This document shows positions 1 to 27,911 of a DNA stretch of 30,360 nt, piece by piece. Below the pieces are notes generated by a model. The model saw only the letters and a list, made by a program, of their open reading frames with translations, made no database searches and was not told where the DNA came from. Every line of letters begins with the position of its first letter. Within the stretch, counting starts at the first letter, position 1. The translations under genes and the position numbers were made by a program. Source of the stretch: a virus; the IMG/VR virus record IMGVR_UViG_3300023180_000270, positions 1-30,360 of that record. One strand, given 5' to 3'.

Positions 1-1480
1 CATCATAAAATTTTACAGTTGGATTTGTTGAGAAGTTAGAACCACTAATTGTAAATGTTGAACCAGCAGCACCAGTAAATGTTGTTGGTGTTACTGATGA
101 AACTAGTGGTGTAGCAGCTAGTGGTGTCCATGCTCCTTCTGAATATATTTCTAAAGCATCTGCATCAGTATTAAATCTCATCATTCCTTCTGCAGGGCTA
201 GAAGGTCTTTGTGCTGATGTTCCTGTTGGTAAACTAAAATATCCTGTAGAGTCTGTAGATGAATCAAATATTTCTGCTGATGCTATATCCCAAGCAGATC
301 CAGTCCAAATATATAATTTTCGAGTATTAGTAATATATGCAATATCACCTTGTTCATTATCTAGCAGTGGCAAATAATTTGCATAAGGATAAACTTTAAC
401 TGAAGACACTGCAGCTGTTCCATCTGCTGCTACAAGTGTAGCTGTACCCGCTACATCTTGAATTTTACGTTTAAAGTTTGGTGTTCTTTCAATATATGTT
501 GCCATATCTTGTGGCACAAATTTACTATTAGTAGCATCATATACTAAACACATCTGATCAACCATACTTGGGATTGGTCTTATTTCAACCGGTGTTGAAT
601 GACCGTCTTGTGTATGTTGTAAGTAGATGACATAGTTGCCGTCAGCATTTGTTTCAACTTCTAAATCTTTAACTTGAATAGTGCCTTGCATTACAGAATG
701 ATTACCACATTGATAATATAATGTATCTGGTGCATCATTTGGTACTACAATTGTAACTGTACCAGAGTCTGTTCGTGATCCTGTAACACCATTTGTATAT
801 TCATCAACATAAGAACCTGAAACAAATCCTGTTCCATTGTCAGTTGTTAAATAGAATGGATGGCCAGTCGCTGAAACATTAAATGTGTATGTACCACCAC
901 GATAGAATGGACCAATATCTGGATTATCGCCGTGCGCATTACCAGAAAATGTATATGCACCATTTCCATTATTTGTTACAGTGTATGAAATATTTGGAGC
1001 TGTTAGTGTAGGTAATGATATAAGTGATGGCACTTGAAATGATAAACGATCAACACCTGTAGTATCACCATTATTAATACTTGGGTGTGAATCAGTTGTT
1101 GTAGTTGTTGTAACCCAATTAACTAAGTTATCAGTACCAGCGCCTTCAAGCCATTTAAGATATAGCTCATGTGTTTGTGACATGCCAGAATGTGTTTCAA
1201 CCCCGGCATAATTGTTTATTGTATATGTACCTTGTTTATATAAAGGAATAGATGTTTGAGTTTCATTAGTAATTTCTACTCGAGAATATGGTAAAGATGA
1301 AGTTGTCCATGTCCATCTCCATACTGCGTTTTGTCCTGATGCAGTAACATTTGCCTGTATTTCTAAAACTTCAGGAGCAATTGTTAAATCAATTTTTGGT
1401 AATGCTGCACCACCGAGTTTAACACCTTCAGGTAAATCGGTAGTTGGATCAATGTTTGTGCCTTTAATTCGTGTTACCAT
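1..1480 (-). CDS. Partial fibre-like virion protein with cupredoxin-like and IPT/TIG-like domains
   Basis: The reading frame is open from ATG at 1480 to the left window edge: 493 codons, no stop, so the C-terminus is missing. The start is preceded by a good ribosome site (TAAGG, 7 bases upstream), 17 bases after the previous stop. Residues about 165-270 look like a cupredoxin: GHPFYL with H207, then YYQCGNHSVM with C258, H261 and M264. The spacing C-x2-H-x2-M is that of type 1 copper proteins such as amicyanin. Residues about 415-455 resemble common phage fibre segments (MMRFNTDADALEIYSEGAW). Residues 459-493 look like the start of an IPT/TIG immunoglobulin-like domain (FTISGSNF). It is the last gene seen after a run of fibre genes, so a tail fibre or tip role is inferred. 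Copper binding is a hypothesis from the ligand pattern; the fold could be kept without metal. Confidence 0.8.
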   Translation of the reverse strand, partial: MVTRIKGTNIDPTTDLPEGVKLGGAALPKIDLTIAPEVLEIQANVTASGQNAVWRWTWTTSSLPYSRVEITNETQTSIPLYKQGTYTINNYAGVETHSGMSQTHELYLKWLEGAGTDNLVNWVTTTTTTDSHPSINNGDTTGVDRLSFQVPSLISLPTLTAPNISYTVTNNGNGAYTFSGNAHGDNPDIGPFYRGGTYTFNVSATGHPFYLTTDNGTGFVSGSYVDEYTNGVTGSRTDSGTVTIVVPNDAPDTLYYQCGNHSVMQGTIQVKDLEVETNADGNYVIYLQHTQDGHSTPVEIRPIPSMVDQMCLVYDATNSKFVPQDMATYIERTPNFKRKIQDVAGTATLVAADGTAAVSSVKVYPYANYLPLLDNEQGDIAYITNTRKLYIWTGSAWDIASAEIFDSSTDSTGYFSLPTGTSAQRPSSPAEGMMRFNTDADALEIYSEGAWTPLAATPLVSSVTPTTFTGAAGSTFTISGSNFSTNPTVKFYD

Positions 1481-8621: not shown

Positions 8622-9113
8622 TTATCCTCTTTCATAGAGATATATCAAAGTATACCTAGTATTTATTACTGGTGGTACTGAATGAGTTACACCTATACCT
8701 TTAAAAATTACAGCTCTACCTATTTCATCTGGGTAGAATTTGTCTTCTATCTTTATACCATCCTCACCATCTTGTAAACTAATTAAAAGATTATGAGTGT
8801 ATAATGTTTTATCTTTATGACTAGGTAAGTAATCTCCTGGTTCATACCTATTCACAACAACTTCTGCTAACTTACTTCCTTCAAATTCAGGAGCCATATC
8901 AGTTAGCTTTTGTAAGCATTCTTTTCCTAATGCTTTATTTAATGCTATACTATAACTACAACTTAAATCATCACCATCAGCTCTTATATACTCCATCTTG
9001 TCTCGTTTTAACCACCGTGCAGGATGAAGTTTCTTTATTTCTTCTAATGCTTCCTTACACTTCTGGGGTGGCCAGAATTGTTGGGTTAAGCTGACGAGGT
9101 CCGATGAGTTCAT
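8622..9113 (-). CDS. 2OG-Fe(II) oxygenase superfamily protein
   Basis: This 163-residue protein carries the iron-binding facial triad and 2-oxoglutarate residue of the family: H99-x-D101 in YEPGDYLPSHKDKT, H144 in GIGVTHSVPPV, and R153 in NTRYTLIYLYE. Strand patterns between them (HNLLISLQDGEDGIKIEDKF, GRAVIFKGIG) fit the double-stranded beta-helix. Such enzymes couple oxidation of 2-oxoglutarate to hydroxylation of a protein or small-molecule substrate; prolyl 4-hydroxylase-like forms are frequent in marine T4-like phages. The start was set at ATG 9113 because AAGGTGGA lies 5 bases upstream; an in-frame TTG at 9128 has no such support. It overlaps the preceding gene by 59 bases. Its place between fibre genes makes a virion protein a plausible substrate, but this is inference. 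Confidence 0.88.
   Translation of the reverse strand: MNSSDLVSLTQQFWPPQKCKEALEEIKKLHPARWLKRDKMEYIRADGDDLSCSYSIALNKALGKECLQKLTDMAPEFEGSKLAEVVVNRYEPGDYLPSHKDKTLYTHNLLISLQDGEDGIKIEDKFYPDEIGRAVIFKGIGVTHSVPPVINTRYTLIYLYERG
8626..8630 (-). promoter_or_regulatory. Ribosome binding site deciding the start at 8620
   Basis: AGAGG, 5 bases before ATG 8620, inside the end of the oxygenase gene. The alternative ATG at 8635 lies upstream of this site and has none of its own. Confidence 0.7.
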
Positions 9114-9630
9114 GTAATCCACCTTCAAGTTGATTTTCTAATGTATTAACTTCTTCAGCTAATGTAACATAATTATAAGCTGGGTCATTTATTAATGATT
9201 CTTTAATTAAATTATTATTAGATTTAACTTCAGCAATAAAGTCTCTCATTTCTAAGAATGCATCATCTTCTACATTAAGAGCTGTAGCTAATTTTTCTAA
9301 TAAATTTTCTTGTATTTCTAAACGTTGGTAAATACCATATGTTTTATCAATTTTAAACTGTGCTGCATTGTTTAATGCAGTTTCTGTCATTAATAATGGC
9401 TGATCTTGTAAGTTTACAATTTCAAAATTATCATATGTACCTTTGAGTGTTTGCTTTTCTAAATTTATTTCAACTTTTTTATAATTAAAAAAGTCTTGAT
9501 TTAGTGTTTCTAAATCTACTAATTGTAATGTTGAAATAAATTCACCAGTAATTTTATTAAACTGGGCCCAACATTCTACCGTTTCATCTTCAGGTACAGT
9601 TTCTGTATATAATTTTTTTAATTCACTCAT
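9055..9630 (-). CDS. Hypothetical 191-residue protein in fibre module
   Basis: The family is not recognised with confidence. The N-terminal half contains VECWAQFNKITGEFISTLQL and LNQDFFNYKKVEINL, strand-like with a T-G-E-F turn of the kind seen in small tail-fibre-associated proteins. The C-terminal half is predicted helical (YQRLEIQENLLEKLATALNV, FLEMRDFIAEVKSNNNLIKE, LAEEVNTLENQLEGG), with coiled-coil heptads. The start is an ATG with an AAGGGA ribosome site about 8 bases upstream, overlapping the previous stop codon. Its last 59 bases also encode the first residues of the 2OG-Fe(II) oxygenase in another frame. A fibre assembly chaperone or a minor fibre component would fit the position, but neither is shown. 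Confidence 0.7.
   Translation of the reverse strand: MSELKKLYTETVPEDETVECWAQFNKITGEFISTLQLVDLETLNQDFFNYKKVEINLEKQTLKGTYDNFEIVNLQDQPLLMTETALNNAAQFKIDKTYGIYQRLEIQENLLEKLATALNVEDDAFLEMRDFIAEVKSNNNLIKESLINDPAYNYVTLAEEVNTLENQLEGGLHELIGPRQLNPTILATPEV
9118..9125 (-). promoter_or_regulatory. Ribosome binding site deciding the oxygenase start at 9113
   Basis: AAGGTGGA lies four bases before ATG 9113, within the preceding gene. It overlaps the codons that follow the alternative TTG at 9128, which argues against TTG. Confidence 0.7.
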
Positions 9631-25171: not shown

Positions 25172-25674
25172 GTTTCCCACCCTACAGTTTCATTATTGTC
25201 ATTATTCCATGGCAAAATAGTATTAGAATTATTTTTCCATGTTACTATTAATCCAGATGGATTAACGTATTGTAATAGTTTTAACTTATTATAATCCCAA
25301 TCATTTTCTACATCAATTGTATATGTTTGACTTGATGTAGTAGATGTTGCGGTGTATGTATATGTTCTAACTAATGTTGTATCAGCTCTAAAATAATATA
25401 CACCATATAATTCATTTCGGTTTATTTCTGCCCAATCATATACTTCTACAAAAGTATCTTGTTTTGTTCTGTATTGTATTAATTCATCAAATGCATCAAG
25501 AAATTGACCACTAATTGTATTGCTTGATACTGTAACACCGCTGTCTGGTGTTGAAGCAGTTATTGTAACTGGCTCAAATTCAGATGTTAATTCATTATAA
25601 TAAGTAATATTATAATTAAATAATTCTCTTTCATTAATGCTGCCTAATAATGAAGATAACGGTGACCAAGCCAT
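25168..25674 (-). CDS. Hypothetical virion protein downstream of gp5
   Basis: This 168-residue protein is from no family I recognise firmly. The ATG overlaps the gp5 stop as TAATG, so it is translated with the hub protein. The sequence is mainly beta: ELFNYNITYYNELTSEFEPV, GVTVSSNTISGQFLDAFDEL, NRNELYGVYYFRADTT, TYTYTATSTTSSQTYTIDVE. The repeated aromatic and Thr pattern suggests one or two immunoglobulin-like or similar sandwich domains. The C-terminus is Trp/Asn-rich (TWKNNSNTILPWNNDNNETV). A structural role next to the spike, or in attaching the fibre-like protein that follows, is inferred only from position. Confidence 0.7.
   Translation of the reverse strand: MAWSPLSSLLGSINERELFNYNITYYNELTSEFEPVTITASTPDSGVTVSSNTISGQFLDAFDELIQYRTKQDTFVEVYDWAEINRNELYGVYYFRADTTLVRTYTYTATSTTSSQTYTIDVENDWDYNKLKLLQYVNPSGLIVTWKNNSNTILPWNNDNNETVGWET
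25176..25181 (-). promoter_or_regulatory. Ribosome binding site deciding the start at 25171
   Basis: GGTGGG stands 4 bases before ATG 25171 and overlaps the alternative GTG at 25180, favouring the ATG. Confidence 0.55.
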
Positions 25675-27911
25675 TACGTAATTAATACAAACTGTCCATT
25701 ACTTGAAACGCGTTTGTGATCCCTCATTGTAAATGCATTAAATCGATTTGCTGTATATTTAAATGATACATGAATCCATACAGTATTTTTACCAGAATAT
25801 TCTAAAAGTATTTGGTCATACGGTACCATTTTAGCTAATTGACATGCTGCTTCATAGTGTTGTTCTCTACTAAATCCTGGTATGACGATATCTGCAGCTT
25901 GACCTAGATAATGTTGTGATGTAGCACTTGATCCTCTTACATCGCCCGGTCTTCTAAAGCCAGATGTAATGACCATATTAGGATATAATTCAGCAAGTGG
26001 TTCTAATACGTTTTCACATAAGCCTTTTAGATTACATACGATTTCATTTTCTGTTAAACCTTGTTGAGGTTTAGGCATACGTGAACCATTCTTTGTTAAT
26101 GCACTTAATGTAAAGTGCTTAGTTAAATATAAATCTGGTGTAAACTTTTCAAGGCCATTAATAATGGCACATGATTGAGGCAGTGCTGTAACACTATTTC
26201 TTGTAACTGCACATGTTTTTTGTGTAGTACCATAATTTTGTTGTTCTGGATCTAATGTACCTTCATTAATACGTTTAGCAATGTATGCAGTAGGATCACC
26301 TTCTTCTGGTGTTTCATAGTGAGCAGCAGCTTCTACACCTCGAGTAATCACTTGTAATTCTTTAAATGATGGCATAACTGGATCATATGCTAATGGTGTT
26401 GTTAATCCTGAAGATACCGCAACTCCACTGTTAAAGTCAATACGTGTTGCATCACCTGCAATATTACCTGACGCTGTCATATCAACGTTACCGCCATGTG
26501 CTTCTAAATTAATACTTGCGGCTTTAACTTTATATGAACCAAGTACTGATGTTTCCATGCTACCATGAACATGCGTTTTAGCATTACCCATAACTTCAAT
26601 ATTTGTATCATTATTAACTTTAACATTCCAATTACCATCGATAGTAATATTACCTGAACCTTTAACATAAACATAATCGTTACGTTCTAGTATTTCATAG
26701 TTATCACCAACAATCTTTTCTACTTTAGTGCCATTTGAATCTATCTCAAAGAATGTACCTTTTGTATGATAGAGATGAATACGTTCTGAATGTTTTGTAT
26801 CATCAAATTCGAATACATGACCAGATTCTGATTGATAAACATGGTTATATGGGTATGTTGCATTGTATGGTATAGGTGATTGATCCCATGTTACATTAAA
26901 TGCAGTTACTACGCCTTTTGTTCTTGTTAATTCTTTCTTACGAACAATTGTTTTCTTTATATCTTCATGTCTTGCAAGTTTATTTGTATCTGGTTCAAAT
27001 TTATAAAGAGGATATTTGCCATTAGGATCTCTAAACCCAAATACCATTTTAAGGCCATTATCTAATTGACCTGACGCAGTTGTACTAGAATCGACTGTAG
27101 GTATAGCTGCTTTAACTGGAACAAGATCACCTGTGGGCCCTGGAATGCCCTCAGCAATAAACTTATCTTTCTCTGCTAGGCGTTTTCTTAATTCACCTTG
27201 ATCAATTTCACCATTAACTTTTGCTTCTTCAGCAAATCCAGTTGCTGCAGCAAGATAATCATTATTATTAAGATCTGATACAATCGATGAACTATCTAAT
27301 GCTCCTGCTTTATTATATTCTAATGAAACAAGAGAATCAAACATTGATTGCGTTATGTCAGATTTAACTTGGCTTTTTACTTTTGCTTCTGCAGCTGCAA
27401 GTTTAACGTCTTGATAAGAAACTGAGCCTGTTAATTCATTTGCAGTTTGTGAAGAAGTAGTAAATGAGGATGCTGCTGCTAAACCAGTTGATTCTTCTGC
27501 TAGTGGACCTGATGTATTTTTAAAAAGATCACCCTTTTTTGTTGACAGAGTTTGTTCATCTGTTCCTGGAAGATAACCATCTTCCTTAAGAATCATTTCA
27601 GTATCATCATCATCTATTGCACCATCTTCTTGAGGTATACCGCCAATTGTACCAACAATAATAGGTTGTTGTTCATATTGATCTCTGAACATAACAATAA
27701 CCCAAGATCCTTCAACTGGACCTAATGGAGAATGTCCTATTCCAGAAATTCCTGCTGATGTAACTGGTTGTAAAGGATATGCCCAAGGCAAATCTTCTGT
27801 TTTAATGTAAGTTTTATCATGTGTATGTAAACCAACAACACGTACTTGACACCGTCCTAGTTTAAAAGGATCTTGTCTATTTTCAACAACGCCTGTATAT
27901 AATTTCATCAT
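25674..27911 (-). CDS. 5: Baseplate hub/spike protein gp5-like with lysozyme remnant and M15-type peptidase domain
   Basis: This is a 745-residue protein. Residues 1-95 are the OB-fold of gp5 (TGVVENRQDPFKLGRCQVRV, GSWVIVMFRDQYEQQPIIVG). Residues about 165-255 resemble only the C-terminal lobe of GH24 phage lysozymes (DITQSMFDSLVSLEYNKAGA, LNNNDYLAAATGF, ELRKRLAEKDKFIAEG). The catalytic Glu/Asp/Thr segment is absent. Residues about 340-500 are the VgrG-like neck and triple beta-helix (ERIHLYHTKGTFFEID, then short repeats such as GSGNITIDGNWNVKV). Residues about 590-735 resemble M15 peptidases: VLEPLAELYPNMVITSGFRR, SQHYLGQAAD (H667, D674) and ILLEYSGKNTVWIHVS (E704, H714), a complete zinc set. 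It forms the piercing spike; peptide cross-links of the wall are the likely substrate, replacing the T4 muramidase. Second start ATG at 27908 is possible. Confidence 0.9.
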   Translation of the reverse strand: MMKLYTGVVENRQDPFKLGRCQVRVVGLHTHDKTYIKTEDLPWAYPLQPVTSAGISGIGHSPLGPVEGSWVIVMFRDQYEQQPIIVGTIGGIPQEDGAIDDDDTEMILKEDGYLPGTDEQTLSTKKGDLFKNTSGPLAEESTGLAAASSFTTSSQTANELTGSVSYQDVKLAAAEAKVKSQVKSDITQSMFDSLVSLEYNKAGALDSSSIVSDLNNNDYLAAATGFAEEAKVNGEIDQGELRKRLAEKDKFIAEGIPGPTGDLVPVKAAIPTVDSSTTASGQLDNGLKMVFGFRDPNGKYPLYKFEPDTNKLARHEDIKKTIVRKKELTRTKGVVTAFNVTWDQSPIPYNATYPYNHVYQSESGHVFEFDDTKHSERIHLYHTKGTFFEIDSNGTKVEKIVGDNYEILERNDYVYVKGSGNITIDGNWNVKVNNDTNIEVMGNAKTHVHGSMETSVLGSYKVKAASINLEAHGGNVDMTASGNIAGDATRIDFNSGVAVSSGLTTPLAYDPVMPSFKELQVITRGVEAAAHYETPEEGDPTAYIAKRINEGTLDPEQQNYGTTQKTCAVTRNSVTALPQSCAIINGLEKFTPDLYLTKHFTLSALTKNGSRMPKPQQGLTENEIVCNLKGLCENVLEPLAELYPNMVITSGFRRPGDVRGSSATSQHYLGQAADIVIPGFSREQHYEAACQLAKMVPYDQILLEYSGKNTVWIHVSFKYTANRFNAFTMRDHKRVSSNGQFVLIT

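Follow-up and report, generated by a model that had tools for sequence, protein, structure and literature searches.

Residues 150-273 of P0001, a tail-fibre-type protein of a T4-like marine phage, almost certainly adopt a cupredoxin fold in which the type 1 copper site is intact. The DNA analysed, hereafter the window, is a whole virus record of 30,360 bases whose source is a T4-like marine phage, and P0001 is its last gene, open at the C-terminus because the contig ends there. The first-pass annotation had listed four ligands, H207, C258, H261 and M264, and all of them were found in the translation of P0001, where the ligand region reads TGHPFYL...TLYYQCGNHSVMQG. The C-x2-H-x2-M spacing, identical to that of amicyanin, was also present as claimed. 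The span originally given for the domain, positions 480-990, turned out to be shifted: the true domain covers 662-1033, with 480-658 falling outside it and the N-terminal residues encoded above 990 left out. Table 1 reports the features of P0001.

Table 1. Features of P0001 and their positions in the window.
Feature	Positions	Strand	Evidence
P0001, multidomain tail-fibre-type protein, at least 493 aa	2-1480	-	Open reading frame, PHROG tail family match, TIG domain
Predicted cupredoxin domain, residues 150-273, complete type 1 copper ligand set	662-1033	-	AlphaFold2 model, PDB fold matches, profile match to cupredoxins
Codon of ligand His207, GHPF loop	860-862	-	Conservation
Codon of ligand Cys258, final residue of model strand 105-110	707-709	-	Conservation and AlphaFold2 model
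Codon of ligand His261	698-700	-	Conservation
Codon of ligand Met264	689-691	-	Conservation
N-terminal companion domain, residues 25-149	1034-1408	-	Profile-profile match, two-domain model, weak Foldseek alignments
Start of IPT/TIG domain, residues 458-491, the rest cut by the contig end	8-109	-	Pfam PF01833, E 1.2e-4

Both the gene context and the PHROG match point to a fibre or baseplate-type protein, in line with the fibre-type protein named in the earlier reading. The window carries a minus-strand stack encoding a gp5-type hub lysozyme, PAAR, gp25, gp6, further wedge proteins and several fibres. P0001 matched profile positions 272-410 of the 412 of phrog_677, the cyanophage baseplate wedge tail fibre connector (gp9), leaving the N-terminal two thirds of the profile unmatched. 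Since the gp6 protein of the window is nearer to phages of heterotrophs, with about 40% identity to Pelagibacter and Methylophilales phages versus about 37% to cyanophages, the host of the window phage may be a heterotroph.

Other genes of the window were also inspected. The fibre encoded at positions 1498-2727 has an Mtd domain at its N-terminus and, at its C-terminus, a chaperone domain of the S74 endosialidase type. The gp5-type hub protein, at 25674-27911, combines a peptidase M15 domain with a phage lysozyme domain, putatively two wall-cutting domains within one tail protein. The protein encoded at 8622-9128 bears the PHROG name DNA endonuclease and has no Pfam match; its sequence features (HKDKTLYTHNLLISL) are suggestive of a 2OG-Fe(II) oxygenase. 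In P-SSM2, piuC is located near the cupredoxin fibre gene.

Predicted fold and sequence relationship to cupredoxins

The AlphaFold2 model of the P0001 domain, obtained from 82 sequences of the window and viral contigs, showed a mean pLDDT of 93 and values near 98 over the site. The predicted sandwich consists of about eight strands of Greek-key type, as in solved cupredoxins. In the model numbering, strands 49-55 and 61-64 are neighbours and the loop between them holds His207; Cys258 is the final residue of the penultimate strand, 105-110, and both His261 and Met264 belong to the loop that precedes the last strand, 117-123. In the model, the order of the ligands and their topological position are those of the cupredoxin type 1 copper arrangement.

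The cupredoxin fold anticipated for this region was supported by structural comparison of the model with the PDB, where cupredoxins were the first matches in both Foldseek and VIA. The best Foldseek matches were AcoP (8e-5) and CuNIR (2e-4), and rusticyanin, a pseudoazurin with amicyanin loop, azurin and plastocyanin were also retrieved, with moderate TM-scores of about 0.5. VIA returned a Z value of 10.8 for rusticyanin over 100 residues at 2.5 Å and of 10.7 for copper nitrite reductase, and 50 out of 50 among the matches listed were cupredoxin-fold copper proteins. A zinc-finger or haem site was discarded as a reading, as the domain has one Cys only together with a cupredoxin fold.

The relationship at the sequence level was evaluated with two profiles, A2, comprising 23 diverse copies, and A3, narrower and closer to the window. 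When A2 was compared with the PDB, the first matches were copper nitrite reductase (1.2e-4), plastocyanin (4.5e-4) and amicyanin (6.5e-4), and cupredoxin-type copper proteins made up 59 of the 60 among the matches listed. In the alignment of A2 with fern plastocyanin, the columns of the first His, the Cys, the second His and the Met coincide. The same profile weakly recovered the petE plastocyanin of P-SSM2, which served as an internal positive control. The NCBIfam amicyanin model matched 14 of the 23 A2 members and the rusticyanin and plastocyanin models matched others, all weakly, and Pfam Copper-bind (PF00127) matched 7 of the 23 relatives with a best E of 6e-5 and gave no match to the window domain itself. 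With A3, cupredoxins did not come first in the PDB; the top matches, such as ribosomal L31 and protein G, were due to chance, azurin and a copper oxidase ranked lower, and the sequence link therefore runs via the diverse A2 copies. The window sequence alone, searched by phmmer against the PDB, with Pfam and by tblastn against plasmids, returned nothing useful for the cupredoxin domain.

Assignment to amicyanin proper was rejected, the window domain scoring 11.5 bits with NCBIfam TIGR02657 against a curated cut-off of 110.2. In plastocyanin and amicyanin the first His ligand is followed by an Asn, whereas a Pro occupies this position in the window domain, and the second sphere therefore differs.

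The region preceding the cupredoxin in P0001, residues 25-149, is conserved together with it in 68 distinct viral relatives. A profile-profile comparison aligned the companion segment PLYKQGTYTINNYA...QTHELYLKW to the cupredoxin segment PFYRGGTYTFNVSATGHPFYLTT with E 4e-5 over 36 columns, superimposing the invariant His104 of the companion on His207. Other invariants of this domain include WxWxW, and the C-H-M ligands are absent from it. A model of the two domains showed a pLDDT of 91. Its Foldseek alignments with two-domain laccases, which extended over both domains, were weak, with an rmsd near 15 Å, and give a hint only. The companion domain may be a degenerate tandem cupredoxin-like sandwich; the two-domain model and the laccase alignments agree with a tandem cupredoxin but do not prove a degenerate copy.

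Conservation and loss of the copper ligands

Retention of the Cys and His residues in close homologues, on which the original proposal depended, was observed throughout, as 58 out of 58 distinct IMG/VR copies hold the four ligands. The analysis was extended to 131-132 copies from viral and phage loci, part of them gathered by a pattern including the Cys, in which His207 (131/131), Cys258 (132/132), His261 (132/132) and Met264 (131/131) were fully conserved. Among 40 diverse representatives sharing less than 60% identity, with a median pairwise identity of 36%, the first His was found in 39 and each of the other three ligands in all 40; out of about 110 positions, the five with the highest conservation are M264, H261, C258, Y256 and H207. 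The conservation of four ligands ruled out a chance CxxHxxM motif. A copy from Lentisphaerae has an Asn replacing the first His (GNPFWI) and retains the other three ligands.

Because the collection pattern contained the Cys, a profile search of whole phage genomes provided the unbiased test. This search identified the domain in 39 distinct places, 32 of which display the H...C-x2-H-x2-M arrangement. In S-SKS1 a further copy has a longer loop, C-x4-H-x2-M, without loss of any of the four ligands, indicating that the loop length varies while the ligands stay. Another copy is truncated at the edge of its locus, with an intact version elsewhere, and the one in S-PM2 is a fragment. The last four places correspond to one orthologous domain that lacks C, H and M and keeps the rest of the domain pattern, reading YAFSYSNPGYG in Syn33, YLFAYTTAGHG in S-SSM5, YLFAYVTAGAG in P-SSM4 and YVFGYPIASVG in Syn9. 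The joint loss of the three ligands in this paralogue was probably a single event, and the pattern that it keeps indicates that the cupredoxin fold does not need the ligands. The all-or-nothing pattern of the ligands, as read from the sequences, argues that the site is kept, rather than the fold. The ligand Cys would otherwise be unpaired in an extracellular protein, and its loss would be expected unless it is liganded. In the four phages with the ligand-less copy, the large protein after gp9 carries a live cupredoxin, a YHYH-like region and then the dead copy.

Distribution and mobility of the domain

Searches by tblastn detected the domain in 312 phage records at E 1e-5, nearly all of them from phages of marine Synechococcus and Prochlorococcus; among viral contigs, 392 stretches contained it. 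Fifteen cyanophage genomes chosen from these matches contained one to five domain matches each. A profile search of eleven further genomes showed that the marine cyanomyoviruses P-SSM4, Syn9 and S-TIM5 carry the domain and S-PM2 a fragment; the domain was absent from T4, KVP40, the freshwater phages S-CRM01 and Ma-LMM01, the pelagiphage HTVC008M and the podoviruses P-SSP7 and Syn5.

The domain was located at the C-terminus of annotated gp9, in tail-fibre proteins and at the end of S8-peptidase proteins, and close to the protein N-terminus in the podovirus P-GSP1; the gp9 (wedge-fibre connector) names are database annotations. Some large virion-type proteins hold it twice or more, in one instance beside a YHYH-type region. 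Judging from these placements, the domain is mobile among marine phage tail and baseplate proteins.

Bacterial and archaeal contigs encode the domain as well, some of them being phage genes within MAGs and others apparently cellular. The cellular-looking carriers include surface-type proteins of Halobellus and Ilumatobacteraceae, those of Halobellus being very large and containing one or two copies. Structural matches in BFVD included predicted beta-sandwich proteins from pithovirus- and marseillevirus-like giant viruses, with E about 1e-7.

The mobility of the domain raises the question of whether the cupredoxin fold might act as a mere beta-sandwich spacer, comparable to the Ig-like domains of phages, its ligand residues being inherited and copper either missing or adventitious. 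Spacer domains, too, occupy varying positions within fibre proteins; at least one paralogue persists after losing the site, and copper in seawater is scarce and complexed, which also speaks for such a role. However, the four ligands rank among the five most conserved positions at a median identity of 36%, and C, H and M disappeared jointly from the dead copies, so that the retention of these residues elsewhere needs a reason. On balance we regard a mere spacer as unlikely.

Proposed role of the metal and comparison with known systems

The occurrence of stoichiometric metal in the virion is probable, and the reading that we favour, with moderate confidence, is that the type 1 copper domain serves the tail of marine, mainly T4-like, phages as a structural or adhesion module stapled by metal. 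We infer copper occupancy, presence in mature virions and a stapling or docking role as parts of this proposal. The apo-protein would be assembled into the tail inside the host cell, and copper would be taken up either at that stage or, once the cell has lysed, from seawater. Bound metal would act as a staple between the His loop and the C-terminal loop with Cys, His and Met, generating a rigid and durable beta-sandwich. In known cupredoxins the end bearing the metal site is a docking surface, and the metal-proximal end of the phage domain might likewise serve for docking, either of tail proteins to one another or of the tail to the surface of the host. The presence of copies on connectors, fibres and baseplate-type proteins suggests a general structural or adhesive use over electron transfer with one partner.

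In cellular proteins, type 1 copper sites are known to act as electron-transfer centres, and they are redox sites in the characterised families. The first-pass annotation had put forward stabilisation of the tip, redox activity and exploitation of host metal uptake as possible roles. The site of the phage domain might be redox-active or deliver copper at the host surface, exchanging electrons or copper with envelope proteins of the host, or might exploit copper uptake as in the iron Trojan-horse model. The redox nature of characterised sites and the multiple copies per genome are in line with this idea, and metal on phage fibres has already been proposed for iron HxH motifs (PMC11705849). Nevertheless, no partner redox domain was found beside the cupredoxin, and copies also occur beyond fibres, in connector, peptidase and baseplate proteins. 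Moreover, the window gp6 is nearest to phages of heterotrophs, whereas most known carriers infect cyanobacteria; with such mixed hosts, no single host redox partner is evident. A redox or delivery function thus appears quite improbable.

The identity of the metal was also considered. In vitro, metals other than copper can occupy cupredoxin sites, and the cytoplasm holds little free copper, so a domain folding in this copper-poor environment might host another structural metal such as Zn, Ni or Fe. However, a Cys-His-His-Met set is the soft-ligand set typical of copper sites, and the invariant Met of the phage domain fits copper, which makes a different metal very improbable.

If abundant ocean phages build a family of type 1 copper sites into their tail-fibre and baseplate proteins, copper would be a component of the virion and, next to the iron proposed for fibres, a second metal. 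Many unnamed structural proteins of marine phages would gain a testable property, namely copper content and blue colour, and the prediction can be directly tested with cultured cyanophages. Virion proteomics of S-SM1 comprises 41 proteins (PMC3037559). A further-reaching proposal, which we consider rather unlikely, is that marine phage tails carry several to many type 1 copper sites per virion and that copper works at infection, possibly through a redox-triggered change of the tail, copper-dependent adsorption or docking to a copper-handling envelope protein of the host. If this were true, copper-loaded virions would constitute a pool of copper-binding ligands in the ocean.

We found no description of cupredoxin domains in phage tails in the literature searched, outside of which most subscription journals fall. 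Cupredoxins and the cyanophage plastocyanin were already known and annotation models already touch a few relatives, but the phage-tail family is undescribed in that literature. The small type 1 cupredoxins, i.e., amicyanin, plastocyanin, rusticyanin and pseudoazurin, share with the window domain the predicted eight-strand sandwich and the ligand topology, in which the first His precedes strand 5 of the model, amicyanin having the same ligand spacing too; however, they are free electron carriers, while the window domain lies within a large virion-type protein. The PetE plastocyanin of cyanophage P-SSM2 is likewise a type 1 copper cupredoxin encoded by a marine phage genome, but it is a separate small metabolic protein and not part of a tail protein.

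The C-terminal part of phrog_677 corresponds to the window domain (E 1.2e-23) and is the only portion of that profile in common with P0001. Iron-binding HxH motifs have been proposed for the tail fibres of phages, including T4 gp37 and alterophage R22Y (PMC11705849). P0001 was rejected as an HxH iron fibre, no HxH occurring within its 493 residues, with the C-terminus lying beyond the contig end. Like the window protein, the HxH fibres place metal ligands on a phage fibre; they coordinate octahedral Fe, whereas the window protein displays one Cys-His-His-Met site within one domain.
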